Shown here piece after piece: positions 54,898-60,350 of a stretch of 64,000 nt of DNA. Each line of letters begins with the position of its first letter. Within the stretch, counting starts at the first letter, position 1. The notes beneath the pieces are model-generated. The model was not told the DNA's origin and did not search any database. It saw nothing but the letters and a program-made list of their open reading frames with translations. This DNA comes from Dehalococcoidia bacterium (GTDB taxonomy: Bacteria > Chloroflexota > Dehalococcoidia > Lucifugimonadales > Lucifugimonadaceae), in NCBI GenBank assembly GCA_002728715.1, contig PBVQ01000029.1:1-64000 (forward strand), in the 5' to 3' direction. The translations under genes and the position numbers were made by a program.

Positions 54898-56034
54898 ATG
54901 GTGTCAAAAACAAAAATTGAAAAAATAGAGCCTATTTTATGGGATAGATGGCTACTCATAAAAATATACTGTGAAGATGGAACAATTGGTATAGGTGAAG
55001 GTGGAGTACACGGATGGCAAAGACCAACAAAAACCATGATTGAAGTAATGTCAGAATACCTATTAGGGAAAAATCCTCACCTTATCGAGCACCACTATCA
55101 ATGGCTATATAGGTCTTCTCATTTTATGGGTTCAATAGTTCAGGGAGCTCTTTCAGCAATTGATATAGCATTATGGGATATCAAAGGAAAAAGATTAAGT
55201 GTACCTATATACGAGCTTATGGGCGGTAAAACTAGAGATAAAGTAAGATGTTATATGCATGTTGGAGGATCAACTAAAGATGAATTAGTTGAAAGTGCGC
55301 TTCAAGCATCAAAAGATGGTTTTACTGCTGTTAGATTTACGCCATATAATCCGACGAATTTTCACATGCACAAATCATATAGTGAGTGGGCTGATGATGC
55401 AGTACAAAGAGTTGGAGCGGTACGGGAAGCTTTAGGAAATGATGTTGATATATGTGTTGAAATTCATAGACAAATGAACCCTGCTGAGAGTATTTCTTTA
55501 GGAAAAAGATTGGAGCAGTTTAATCCTTTTTTCTACGAGGACCCTATGTTACCAGACAGCCCTGCGATAATGGGAGATATTGCAAAACAGTGCAACATAC
55601 CCATTGCTACAGGAGAAAGATTTACAACAATATTTGAATATCAACAATTACTTGAAGCAAAAGCTGCGGCATACATTAGACCAGACTTATGTTTATGTGG
55701 TGGTTTATCTGGATCCAAAAAAGTTTCAGCTATGGCTGAAGCTTATCATGTAAAAGTCATTCCTCATAACCCTTTATCACCTGTGAGTACAGCTACTTGT
55801 ATACAGCTTGATGCTTGCATACCAAATTTTGGATTACAGGAATACACAGGCGAATCAGAACCACCAAAAAGTGAACTACTTAAATCACCCCTCGAGTTAA
55901 AAAATGGTTACTTAACCGTTCCTGATGGAGTTGGACTAGGAATTGAAATAAATGAGAAATCTCTTAATATGCCAGAAAACCCTAAGGTATTAGATACTCC
56001 AATTGGATTTGATGGCAGTGTTCAAGACAGATAA
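54898..56034 (+). CDS. enolase-superfamily dehydratase, galactonate dehydratase (DgoD)-like
   Basis: 378 aa. RWLLIKIYCEDGTIGIGEGG start, FTAVRFTP, DICVEIHRQMNP, FFYEDPM, ATGERFTTIFEY, YIRPDLCLCGGLSGSKKVSAMAEAYHVKVIPHNPLSPVS: metal ligands (D/E at strands 3-5) and the catalytic IPHN histidine are present. This is closer to DgoD/GalD-type enzymes than the paralogue at 12 kb; sugar not deducible. Nearby MFS and sulfatase suggest use of sulfated or oxidised sugars (inference). Confidence 0.9.
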   Translation: MVSKTKIEKIEPILWDRWLLIKIYCEDGTIGIGEGGVHGWQRPTKTMIEVMSEYLLGKNPHLIEHHYQWLYRSSHFMGSIVQGALSAIDIALWDIKGKRLSVPIYELMGGKTRDKVRCYMHVGGSTKDELVESALQASKDGFTAVRFTPYNPTNFHMHKSYSEWADDAVQRVGAVREALGNDVDICVEIHRQMNPAESISLGKRLEQFNPFFYEDPMLPDSPAIMGDIAKQCNIPIATGERFTTIFEYQQLLEAKAAAYIRPDLCLCGGLSGSKKVSAMAEAYHVKVIPHNPLSPVSTATCIQLDACIPNFGLQEYTGESEPPKSELLKSPLELKNGYLTVPDGVGLGIEINEKSLNMPENPKVLDTPIGFDGSVQDR

Positions 56035-56037
56035 ATT

Positions 56038-56424
56038 TTACCTACCATAATCGTCTTCAACTCTTACAATATCATCCTCTCCAAGATAGTCGCCAGTCTG
56101 AACCTCAATTATTTCTAGTGGCTCTACAGATGATATATTTTCTATTCTATGGTGACAATTTCTCTCAACAAAAGCGGACTCACCCCTGCCTAAAATCAAT
56201 TCACTTTTGTCAATAATAACTTTTGCTGTGCCTCTAGCTATAACCCATGTTTCATCTCTATGTCTATGCCATTGAAGAGATAATCTAGAATTGATGTTTA
56301 CTGTTAATCTCTTAACTTGAAATCCATGACCGGAACTTAATATTTCATAAGCACCCCAAGGTCTTTTCTCTTTTTTATTTTTAGGCTTAGTATTTTCTAA
56401 ATTTATATTTATTTTATCTGTCAT
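56038..56424 (-). CDS. cupin, mannose-6-phosphate isomerase type II-like
   Basis: 128-aa single-domain cupin equal to the C-terminal isomerase domain of bifunctional ManC/AlgA: RPWGAYEILSSGHGFQVKRLTVNINSRLSLQWHRHRDETW (H53, H55, E58), ARGTAKVII and FVERNCHHRIEN. Standalone forms are common; it could isomerise mannose 6-phosphate or be a sugar-binding cupin. Ends 3 bases from the convergent dehydratase gene. Confidence 0.85.
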   Translation of the reverse strand: MTDKININLENTKPKNKKEKRPWGAYEILSSGHGFQVKRLTVNINSRLSLQWHRHRDETWVIARGTAKVIIDKSELILGRGESAFVERNCHHRIENISSVEPLEIIEVQTGDYLGEDDIVRVEDDYGR

Positions 56425-56523: not shown

Positions 56524-57756
56524 TTGAAAATAAAAAATACAAACATATATTATGGTTGGATAATCGTAATTGTTATGGCGATATCAACGGCAGCAACAAT
56601 GGGAATGGGTTCGCTAAATTTTGGATTATTTATAAATCCTATGGGCAGTGAACTAAATATTGGTAGATCAACTTTTGGCTTAGCTCAAACGGCAAGACAG
56701 TTCTCAAGTTCATTTACGGCTCCTATAATTGGAAAATTATTAGATAAACATGGGTCAAGAATTTTATTACCTTTTGCTGCATTAATAGTTGGGGTTTGCC
56801 TAATTGGTCTTTCATTTGTTCAATATGCCTGGCAAATCATTTTATTATTCATAATTATGGGTTTTGTTGGTTTAGCCGGGCCAGGAAATTTAGTAACCAC
56901 AATACCGGTGAATAAATGGTTTGTAAAAAAAAGGGCAAAAGCTATTGCATTTTCATCCATTGGAATTCCTATAGGTTCTTTAATATTTCTACCCGCCACT
57001 CAATTATTTATTGATTCTTTTGGATGGAGAAATGCTTGGATATTATTATCCATTATTTCAATGATATTGATAATACCTATATCAATATTGTTCTTACGAA
57101 GGCTTCCAGAAGATATAGGACTTTTACCAGATGGCGAAAAAAAACATTTACAAAAAGATGATAATAATATTGAAATTTCATGGAAAGTTAATGAATCAAT
57201 AAAGACCATTGAATTTTGGAAATTACTAATAATGTTTAGTTTTATTAATCTTGCATTAGGTACAATTGCAATCCACAGAATTCCTGATTTTATAGATAGA
57301 GGAATAGATGCTAAATTAGTTGCTTTCGCCACAGCATTAGATGCTGTGGCTGCAGGTATTAGTATATTCATAATAGGCAATATACAAAAAAAAATACCAA
57401 ATAAAATTTTAACCTCTGTAGGTTTTATACTGATTACTATAGCTAGTGTAATAACAATTTATGCTCAATCATTTTTTCCGGTTCTTATTTCAATGATTAT
57501 ATTTGGATTTGGTATTGGAGGAATGTTATTCTTAAATAACTTTATATGGGCTGATTTTTTTGGAAGAAAATACTTAGGTTCAATCAGAGGGATAGTCATG
57601 CCAGTAACATTAATCATTGGAGGTACAGGAGCACCAATAGCCGGATATTTTTATGACTATTATGGTACATATGATAATATCTGGTGGTGTGGTATCATAC
57701 TAATGTCTATATGTGTAATAATATCAATCACATTAAAAAAACCTAAGAAAAAATAA
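56524..57756 (+). CDS. MFS transporter, OFA/MCT-like
   Basis: 410 aa with about 12 membrane helices. NIYYGWIIVIVMAIS at the N-terminus and the NLVTTIPVNKWFVKKRAKAIAFSSIGIPIGS segment are typical of the oxalate:formate/monocarboxylate branch, which usually carries carboxylates. TTG start; AAGGA lies 15 bases upstream, somewhat far. The sulfatase begins 4 bases after its stop, so the pair is an operon. Confidence 0.85.
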   Translation: MKIKNTNIYYGWIIVIVMAISTAATMGMGSLNFGLFINPMGSELNIGRSTFGLAQTARQFSSSFTAPIIGKLLDKHGSRILLPFAALIVGVCLIGLSFVQYAWQIILLFIIMGFVGLAGPGNLVTTIPVNKWFVKKRAKAIAFSSIGIPIGSLIFLPATQLFIDSFGWRNAWILLSIISMILIIPISILFLRRLPEDIGLLPDGEKKHLQKDDNNIEISWKVNESIKTIEFWKLLIMFSFINLALGTIAIHRIPDFIDRGIDAKLVAFATALDAVAAGISIFIIGNIQKKIPNKILTSVGFILITIASVITIYAQSFFPVLISMIIFGFGIGGMLFLNNFIWADFFGRKYLGSIRGIVMPVTLIIGGTGAPIAGYFYDYYGTYDNIWWCGIILMSICVIISITLKKPKKK

Positions 57757-57760
57757 TACT

Positions 57761-59233
57761 ATGAAAAAAAATAAACCGAATATTCTTTTTATATTAACCG
57801 ACCAACAGAGACGTGATTCAATGAAAGCATATGGAAATAACTGGATTAATACTCCTAATTTAGATAGCCTTTCAGAAAAAAGTTTTGTTTTTGAAAATAC
57901 TTACGTTACACAACCTGTTTGTACTCCTGCAAGAGCATCAATAATGACGGGGCTTTATCCACAAAAAACTGGCTTGCACAGAAACAATATCCCGCTAGAC
58001 AAAAATATAGATACTATTGGAGATCTAATTAATGAGGATTATTATAATGCCCACATGGGAAAGTGGCATCTTGGTGATGATATGATAGCTCAACGTGGCT
58101 TTGACAAATGGATAGGGGTAGAAGATTTTCAAAGGATAAGGTCAACAAAAAAAGAATATAGGTATGTTGAGTCACCATATAATAATTGGTTAAAAAGTTT
58201 TGGTATAAATCCTCCAGAAATTGAAAAAACATATGAAGCATGGGTAGGAAAAGCTAACTTAACAGAAGAACAAACCCAGGCAGGATTTTTGGGACATGAA
58301 TCTTCAAAGTTCATTACTGAATTTCCAAAGTCTGCATATAAGGAAAAACCATGGATGCTTTTTGTTAATTTTTTTGAGCCTCATCCCCCATATACGGGGC
58401 CATTCAATGGACTTTATGATCCTGATAAAATAGAAGTAGGGCCTTCCTTCAGAAAAAGACCTGATAATGGGTCATTAATTAATAAACTAAGATCAGATTT
58501 CTATATGTCTGGTGGGGTAAATCCTCTTGGAGCAGAAGGTGGCGATATACATGACACAACTACTGAAGAAGGTTTTAGGAAATTACGAGCTCAATATTTT
58601 GCAAATGTAACACTAGTGGATAATCAGATAGGAAAAATTTTAAAAGCATTAGATGAATCAGGAGAATCTGATAACACAATAATAATTTTTACAAGTGAGC
58701 ATGGGGAGATGGGAGGAGATCATGGAATGCTAGAGAAAAGATCATTATATGAAGAGTCTTCAAACGTACCATTATTAATTCATGTTCCAGAGCTAAATAA
58801 TAATAAAAAAACTAATATCAAAGGTTCTATAAGTCAAGTTGATCTTGTACCTACTATTTTAGATCTCACTAGTTCAGAAATTCCAAAAACTCTCCATGGA
58901 AATTCTCTAGTTCCAGTCCTCAAAGGTGATGCTAATCTAAAAAATAATGATGTATTTATCCAATGGAATGGAATGAATGATAGAAATCTTGGAAGTCCTG
59001 AAATCAACCGAATGATAGCAGTACCATGGAGAGGTGTAATAACTGGAAATAGATGGAAATTAAATTTATCTCCAGGTGATCAATGTGAATTATACGACCT
59101 TAATACTGATCCTTATGAGATGAATAATTTATTTAATTTTTCTGATCAGAAAGATCGTATAAGAGACATGGCTGCAAGAATTAGAGTTTGGCAAGATTTT
59201 ACCGAAGATGACATGGTTTTGCCAACAGTGTAA
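57761..59233 (+). CDS. type I (formylglycine) sulfatase
   Basis: 490-aa arylsulfatase-family enzyme hydrolysing sulfate esters. NILFILTDQQRRDS metal ligands, the C-x-P-x-R modification motif PVCTPARASIMTG with Cys54, MGKWHLGD, FEPHPPY and FTSEHGEMGGDHGM. Cys54 must be converted to formylglycine by a maturase not seen in the window. No signal peptide: the protein begins directly at the catalytic strand, suggesting cytoplasmic desulfation of imported small sulfate esters. Ends before a strong terminator. Confidence 0.93.
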   Translation: MKKNKPNILFILTDQQRRDSMKAYGNNWINTPNLDSLSEKSFVFENTYVTQPVCTPARASIMTGLYPQKTGLHRNNIPLDKNIDTIGDLINEDYYNAHMGKWHLGDDMIAQRGFDKWIGVEDFQRIRSTKKEYRYVESPYNNWLKSFGINPPEIEKTYEAWVGKANLTEEQTQAGFLGHESSKFITEFPKSAYKEKPWMLFVNFFEPHPPYTGPFNGLYDPDKIEVGPSFRKRPDNGSLINKLRSDFYMSGGVNPLGAEGGDIHDTTTEEGFRKLRAQYFANVTLVDNQIGKILKALDESGESDNTIIIFTSEHGEMGGDHGMLEKRSLYEESSNVPLLIHVPELNNNKKTNIKGSISQVDLVPTILDLTSSEIPKTLHGNSLVPVLKGDANLKNNDVFIQWNGMNDRNLGSPEINRMIAVPWRGVITGNRWKLNLSPGDQCELYDLNTDPYEMNNLFNFSDQKDRIRDMAARIRVWQDFTEDDMVLPTV

Positions 59234-59248
59234 AAAATCACAATTAAA

Positions 59249-59281
59249 GTAAAAACCTCCGAAAAACATTCGGAGGTTTTT
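59249..59281. terminator. bidirectional intrinsic terminator
   Basis: AAAAACCTCCG (59251-59261) pairs perfectly with CGGAGGTTTTT (59271-59281) around a 9-base loop, flanked by A and T runs on both sides. It sits between the convergent sulfatase and iron-binding lipoprotein genes and can stop transcription from either. Confidence 0.85.
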
Positions 59282-59316: not shown

Positions 59317-60321
59317 TTATTGCAATGCCCCTACTTCAGTAAGTAAAGCAACCGTTCCTTCTATGTCTTTCAATTCAGCAATATCTATATCAAACTTCTT
59401 AATATCTGCTAAAGGAGTAAGCATTCTATTAGGCTTAGCTCCATCATTGAGTGGATATTCATAAGTTTGAGAAGCAAAGAATTGCTGTCCAACTGGACTT
59501 AATAAGAATTTTAGAAACTTTTCAGCATTATCTTTATTGTCTGATTGTTCTAAAACTCCTGCACCTGCAACTAGGACTATTGAACCAGGATCATCAGCTG
59601 TTGTGTGGTAATTTCTAGCTCCAAACCCCTCACCATTTTCAGCTATAAATCGATGCAAGTAGTAGTGGTTTACAAAACCAACTTCTATTTCTCCTTTACC
59701 AGCAGCTTCTACTGTAGGAGTATTTTTTGCATAGAATTTTGGCTCATTTGCCATAATTTCTTCTAGCCAAGATTTAGTTTTTTCATCACCCCAAGTTAGC
59801 CTCATACCAGTTACCATTGCGTGAAAAGAACTATTTGTTGGAGGAAACCCAATTTTTCCTTTCCATTTTGGATCTGTGAAACCTTCAAGAGAAGCAGGTA
59901 AATCTGATGGTGAAACAGCATCTGTGTTATATACAACTACTCTTGCTCTACCAGATGTTCCTACCCATTTATTTTGAGGATCTCTAGCCCATTCAGGTAC
60001 TAAAGAAGTAACATCGTTAGACAAAGTTGTAAGCATAGCGTCTACTGAACCAAGTCCACCAGGATCTTGAGCAAAGAAAACATCTGCAGGAGTCTTGTCA
60101 CCTTCCTCTAATAAAGTGGAAGCCATAGCTGTTGTCTTACCATAATTAACCTCTACTTCAATTCCGCTCATATCAGAGAACTGATCAATAAGTGGTTGAA
60201 CAAGTGACTCACCTCTTCCAGAGTAGATAACTAGCGGTTTATCAGGAGCTTCTTCCGTAGTGCATGCAAATATCATTACACTTACCAAAGTTAGCATCAT
60301 AAGTAAAATATTTTTTTTCAA
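59317..60321 (-). CDS. ferric iron-type ABC substrate-binding lipoprotein
   Basis: Extracellular solute-binding protein of the FbpA/FutA family. The TTG nine codons into the track ORF is preferred: AGAGG lies 6 bases upstream, and it gives a standard lipoprotein signal peptide MKKNILLMMLTLVSVMIFAC with Cys20; 334 aa. Mature part: LVIYSGRGESLVQPLIDQF, VNYGKTTAMASTLLEEG, PADVFFAQDPGGLG, and GFVNHYYLHRF with the paired tyrosines used by Fe(III)-binding members. No permease or ATPase gene is adjacent, so it is an orphan in this window. Confidence 0.9.
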   Translation of the reverse strand: MKKNILLMMLTLVSVMIFACTTEEAPDKPLVIYSGRGESLVQPLIDQFSDMSGIEVEVNYGKTTAMASTLLEEGDKTPADVFFAQDPGGLGSVDAMLTTLSNDVTSLVPEWARDPQNKWVGTSGRARVVVYNTDAVSPSDLPASLEGFTDPKWKGKIGFPPTNSSFHAMVTGMRLTWGDEKTKSWLEEIMANEPKFYAKNTPTVEAAGKGEIEVGFVNHYYLHRFIAENGEGFGARNYHTTADDPGSIVLVAGAGVLEQSDNKDNAEKFLKFLLSPVGQQFFASQTYEYPLNDGAKPNRMLTPLADIKKFDIDIAELKDIEGTVALLTEVGALQ

Positions 60322-60350
60322 TTTAAACCTCTTATATATTTTTTTCAAGA

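Follow-up and report, generated by a model that had tools for sequence, protein, structure and literature searches.

Sulfatases of the formylglycine (FGly) type that act together with a small-solute transporter in catabolism are known, for example the choline sulfatase of marine Roseobacter (PMC4744692). In Roseobacter and Sinorhizobium this sulfatase, BetC, is encoded in a catabolic cluster with betT/betAB, and the system gains carbon from a small organosulfate (PMC4744692). The gene pair that we describe here is similar: an FGly-type sulfatase, with a fold like that of BetC, is encoded next to a putative small-solute transporter, and we propose a gain of carbon for it as well. It differs from the BetC system in that an MFS transporter takes the place of BetT and choline-pathway genes are absent nearby. 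The sulfatase reaches 207.6 bits against the choline sulfatase model (TIGR03417, cut-off 433), an identity that we rejected.

Other relatives are informative too. The sulfatase has the same metal site, Asp-Gln-Cys-(acid)-His, as the Mn-dependent arylsulfatase EfAS of Enterococcus faecium and the SpAS1/SpAS2/PMH group (PMC12421950) and matches them at the remaining catalytic positions, but it is only 20-25% identical to them and has Glu313 in place of Asp311. It is also one of the sulfatase paralogs (COG3119) recorded in SAR202 groups I and II, the clade to which its host belongs. The portions of the two SAR202 papers considered here report numbers of genes and propose that the targets are sulfated polysaccharides, fucoidan among them; operon structure, cell location and a Glu metal ligand do not appear in these portions (PMC6946804, PMC10444878). 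For the transporter, the closest relatives in both sequence and fold are SfMCT (L-lactate), MCT1/2 and OxlT (oxalate:formate). The arrangement resembles known systems and is ordinary in kind. The Glu metal ligand is the gene pair's one unusual trait.

On balance, we lean towards a reading in which the MFS transporter and the cytosolic sulfatase import a small organosulfate and desulfate it inside the cell, feeding sugar-acid pathways. The two genes would form one transcription unit. The transporter would bring in a small, negatively charged organosulfate; the likeliest candidates are sulfated sugars, sugar lactones and sugar acids derived from algal organic matter. The formylglycine-generating enzyme (FGE) of the genome would activate the sulfatase in the cytosol by turning Cys54 into formylglycine, and the sulfatase would then strip the sulfate there. 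The desulfated sugar or acid would enter the non-phosphorylative routes for sugar acids that characterise SAR202 group I, for example through an enolase-superfamily dehydratase encoded close by (Table 1).

The window, the stretch of 64,000 nucleotides that we analysed, belongs to a Chloroflexota MAG of SAR202 group I (1,348,634 bases, 33 contigs, 83.8% complete), where it sits on contig C26. The host genome is streamlined and marine. Its placement in SAR202 group I follows from the relatives of the sulfatase: the best named ones come from marine Chloroflexi MAGs (98, 90 and 87% identity), and the enzyme of Candidatus Lucifugimonas marina is 74% identical. Both open reading frames, the gap between them and the closing hairpin were verified where the preliminary description had placed them (Table 1).

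Table 1. Positions of the gene pair and its neighbouring features in the window.
Feature	Position	Strand	Details
Enolase-superfamily acid-sugar dehydratase-like gene	54898..56034	+	NCBIfam galactonate dehydratase 313.6 bits, cut-off 311
PMI-type cupin, stand-alone (PF01050)	56038..56424	-	Divergent neighbour of the sulfatase unit
MFS transporter	56524..57756	+	TTG start, 410 aa; Pfam MFS_1 3e-37
Gap, MFS stop to sulfatase ATG	57757..57760	+	4 bases
FGly-type (S1) cytoplasmic sulfatase	57761..59233	+	ATG start, 490 aa; Pfam Sulfatase 1.3e-50, SGSH_C tail
Hairpin, bidirectional, terminator-like	59251..59281		13 pairs, -18.3 kcal/mol; between the convergent sulfatase and solute-binding-protein genes

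The sulfatase carries the first S1 signature (C/S-x-P/A-x-R) as C54-T-P-A-R58, which is conserved across its relatives and bears out the C-x-P-x-R motif reported earlier. The second signature (G-K-x-H) is present as the invariant G100-K101-W102-H103. Every catalytic position is filled: D14, Q15, C54, R58, K101, H103, H208, E313, H314 and K326. When the residues are matched by motif to the EfAS positions given in PMC12421950, D14, Q15, C54, R58, K101, H103, H208, H314 and K326 correspond to EfAS D20, Q21, C61, R65, K110, H112, H220, H312 and K324. The sole difference is E313, where EfAS has D311. D311 is a metal ligand of EfAS, and the exchange D311N abolishes activity (PMC12421950).

How unusual is Glu at this position? 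At this residue of the Ca-binding-2 consensus of S1 sulfatases, 99% of 4058 sequences carry Asp; 19 carry Glu, the commonest documented substitute (PMC5066984). The window sulfatase departs from this consensus, at a position that is near-universal and not defining. Among its own relatives Glu prevails: position 313 (T-S-E313-H-G) is Glu in 23 and Asp in 4 of 27 aligned sequences (alignment A1). On the tree, four changes are required to explain this distribution, and well supported branches impose at least two of these. Hence Glu and Asp have interchanged. The sequences with Glu313 come mainly from SAR202.

The AlphaFold model of the sulfatase (pTM 0.92) has the S1 fold. Foldseek places S1 sulfatases and PMHs at the top (20-25% identity, E-values as low as 2e-31), and the similarity extends over the whole length of the protein (the match to SpAS1 covers profile positions 1-478, 3e-60). 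The closest named solved relatives belong to S1_11, S1_46, S1_30 and choline sulfatase. At 20-25% identity, they are too distant for the substrate to be read off. Against the NCBIfam model Mn_arylsulf the enzyme scores 121 bits, where 850 are needed.

The closest solved structures include PMHs and the SpAS1/SpAS2 group, and the enzyme shares an Asp-Gln-x-His metal site with PMH and EfAS rather than having Asp-Asp-Asp-Asn. Both points agree with an enzyme of the PMH branch of the superfamily whose main activity is the promiscuous hydrolysis of phosphonate or phosphate (di)esters. We regard such an activity as quite improbable: K101 and H103 of the GKWH motif are typical of sulfatases (compare K110 and H112 of EfAS), and the match to the PehA/phosphonate monoester hydrolase model (NF045661) stops at 201.7 bits, far below the cut-off of 900, which does not support this identity.

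The sulfatase lacks a signal peptide, as had been described. Its N-terminus, MKKNKPNILFILTDQQ, has no hydrophobic stretch in the first 30 residues, where the peak 19-residue hydropathy is -0.44. The same N-terminus is found in relatives. The stop-to-stop frame has 498 codons compared to 490 in the gene, leaving just 8 open codons upstream of the start. Hence no signal peptide can be added, and a secreted enzyme after correction of the start is ruled out.

None of the nine sulfatases in the genome has a signal peptide; each begins directly at the catalytic domain. Cytosolic desulfation would thus be a genome-wide trait and not particular to this operon. The preliminary description had set the enzyme apart from the secreted sulfatases of polysaccharide degraders. 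This is true of the window enzyme, but it is no distinguishing mark within the genome.

We found a single-copy FGE gene elsewhere in the genome (C2:9587-10429; Pfam PF03781, 2.7e-71, 239 bits), the maturation system of S1 sulfatases. It encodes a C-x4-C catalytic pair, and we take the motif around this pair to be the FGE active-site motif. An anaerobic sulfatase maturase was sought in the host genome and not found. With a bona fide FGE present, the possibility that the genome holds no maturase is ruled out. An absent maturase and a recoverable secretion signal were the two findings that had been named as speaking against intracellular desulfation; neither came true. Desulfation inside the cell by an FGly-type enzyme is thus supported. 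In contig C2 of this assembly, an in-frame TAA breaks the sulfatase gene closest to the FGE gene (L121, 5519-6937). The maturation system differs among genera with orthologous sulfatases. FGE occurs in the host genus and two more genera of the family (G000, G058, G124, G144, G028, G099). In the Lucifugimonas genomes (G086, G114; loci L130, L131), by contrast, the sulfatase maturase is of the anaerobic type (516-524 bits), and a clear FGE is lacking.

The transporter had been called OFA-like. This holds for its fold and its closest solved relatives, but not for the curated families: the protein scores 92.1 bits against the oxalate/formate antiport family (TIGR00890, cut-off 374.85) and 124 bits against the SfMCT-type lactate transporters (NF049980, cut-off 320). 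SfMCT has a substrate-binding Arg, R280, in TM8. Neither the window transporter nor its orthologs have Arg at the aligned position, which counts against the import that we propose; a His-Arg pair in TM7 (H251-R252) and an Asp in TM8 (D273) are invariant in the ortholog alignment instead. In a comparison with GlpT as a probe for organophosphate-type antiport, a correspondence of the TM7 Arg would depend on a weak profile alignment (84% probability). Judged by sequence, the substrate of the transporter is not readable from its family.

Are the two genes a functional unit? Both evolve under strong purifying selection (dN/dS ~0.07-0.11 compared to the sister species), and hence both are real genes. 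The spacing between them is equally short in loci L011, L012 and L081. The hairpin behind the sulfatase includes A- and T-tracts within its stem and can therefore serve both strands. It is present in the sister loci L011 and L013 and absent from L012, which also lacks the convergent solute-binding-protein gene (59317-60348 in the window). Thus the hairpin may belong to the solute-binding-protein gene as much as to the operon. Homologs of this gene are also found near MFS orthologs and other sulfatases in loci L112 and L113.

We surveyed 147 genomes of the order, with thresholds of E <= 1e-90 for the sulfatase and E <= 1e-60 for the MFS relative. The sulfatase occurs in 49 genomes and the MFS relative in 83. 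Among the neighbourhoods read, the two genes lie side by side in the host genus only, and the sister loci L012 and L013 concur. On these neighbourhoods, we rejected an adjacency conserved across SAR202. Since the pairing is restricted to one genus, conserved adjacency is weak evidence.

Such a restricted pairing fits two genes that are mere neighbours as a result of genome streamlining, with a transporter that takes up an unsulfated metabolite while sulfate esters enter by other transporters. The same can be said of the Lucifugimonas genome, where the sulfatase ortholog (74%) is present and no MFS relative was found at E <= 1e-60, and of other genera, which have the transporter (~54%) without the sulfatase or carry the two on separate contigs. 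MFS orthologs are mostly distant from sulfatases, and the host genome has ~25 MFS genes. Yet the close spacing is kept in sister loci under purifying selection. Furthermore, a sulfatase and a strong MFS ortholog co-occur in 19 genomes where 10 are expected (Fisher p = 2e-4, uncorrected for kinship). A second, independent MFS-sulfatase pair exists as well. Mere neighbourhood is therefore, in our view, rather unlikely. Uptake by the adjoining transporter, as the preliminary description had it, stays plausible, tempered by the genus-specific pairing and by the Lucifugimonas sulfatase without a close MFS ortholog.

The second pair lies on contig C25 of the host genome (locus L122, 1865-10112), together with two enolase-superfamily genes, a cupin, an SMP-30/gluconolactonase and two epimerase-type genes. 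Its MFS and sulfatase genes overlap by 4 bases. The C25 transporter gives no significant match to the window transporter, and the two sulfatases are 26% identical. Like the window pair, it is restricted to the host genus. Two MFS-sulfatase pairs among nine sulfatases have a probability of ~0.01 under random gene order (~1350 genes assumed). The C25 locus is likely a sulfated-sugar pathway.

The direction of transport deserves separate consideration. No PAPS reductase scores above the cut-off in the host genome (83.8% complete) or in the sister genome G058 (95% complete). This negative result, of limited weight for one protein family in incomplete genomes, speaks for desulfation for carbon rather than for sulfur. 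It also means that sulfate set free in the cytosol must leave the cell, and the transporter of the C25 pair fits DHA2 efflux models best. Both observations would suit a window transporter that exports the desulfated product or sulfate and does not import the substrate. However, the window transporter resembles the MCT/OFA carriers, which work in uptake and exchange, and is not of the DHA type, which makes an exporter very unlikely. A further reading, which we consider improbable, joins a SAR202-rich subfamily of Glu-ligand sulfatases with altered metal or substrate preference to an MCT/OFA-derived sulfate-ester:sulfate antiporter in the host genus. If this were true, ester import and disposal of the freed sulfate would be a single step.

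For the reading that we prefer, import followed by intracellular desulfation, the neighbouring genes bear on the substrate. The cupin adjoins the sulfatase in three genera and is its divergent neighbour in genus g7 too. In Lucifugimonas, the sulfatase clusters with the cupin, an ortholog of the dehydratase (82%), a Gfo/Idh-type dehydrogenase and a GMC-type oxidoreductase. The cupin and/or dehydratase orthologs remain with the sulfatase in other genera. From gene context, these neighbours make a sulfated sugar or a sulfated sugar acid the more probable substrate. The earlier proposal of a small sulfated organic acid or sugar is thereby narrowed; a generic organic acid is less favoured. As a partner of the sulfatase, the cupin is more conserved than the transporter.

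Nearness of enolase-superfamily genes as such carries no statistical weight. They lie near three of the nine sulfatases, but the genome has ~40 of them (P = 0.28 genome-wide), and we dropped this argument. In SAR202 family f6 (loci L091, L095 and L117), tandem sulfatase copies follow permease and solute-binding genes that, by eye, resemble a peptide-type ABC transporter, with an aldolase-like gene, likewise identified by eye, nearby.

Physiology points to pathways that could receive the desulfated product. According to the portions of PMC10444878 considered here, cultured SAR202 group I bacteria have 18 sulfatase and 42 MFS genes and use fucose, rhamnose and their acids and lactones. Non-phosphorylative oxidation and dehydration have been shown physiologically in cultured SAR202 for these compounds in unsulfated form (PMC10444878). 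In the host genome, the dehydratase encoded beside the cupin may link the sulfatase to such a pathway.

SAR202 sulfatases have hitherto been read as tools against sulfated polysaccharides. Nine intracellular sulfatases, two of them coupled to MFS carriers, point to the uptake of small dissolved organosulfates instead, and the Glu metal ligand provides a marker of one sulfatase subfamily. The gene pair may represent a concrete, testable route for an abundant, mostly uncultured marine lineage to use a part of the dissolved organic sulfur and carbon.
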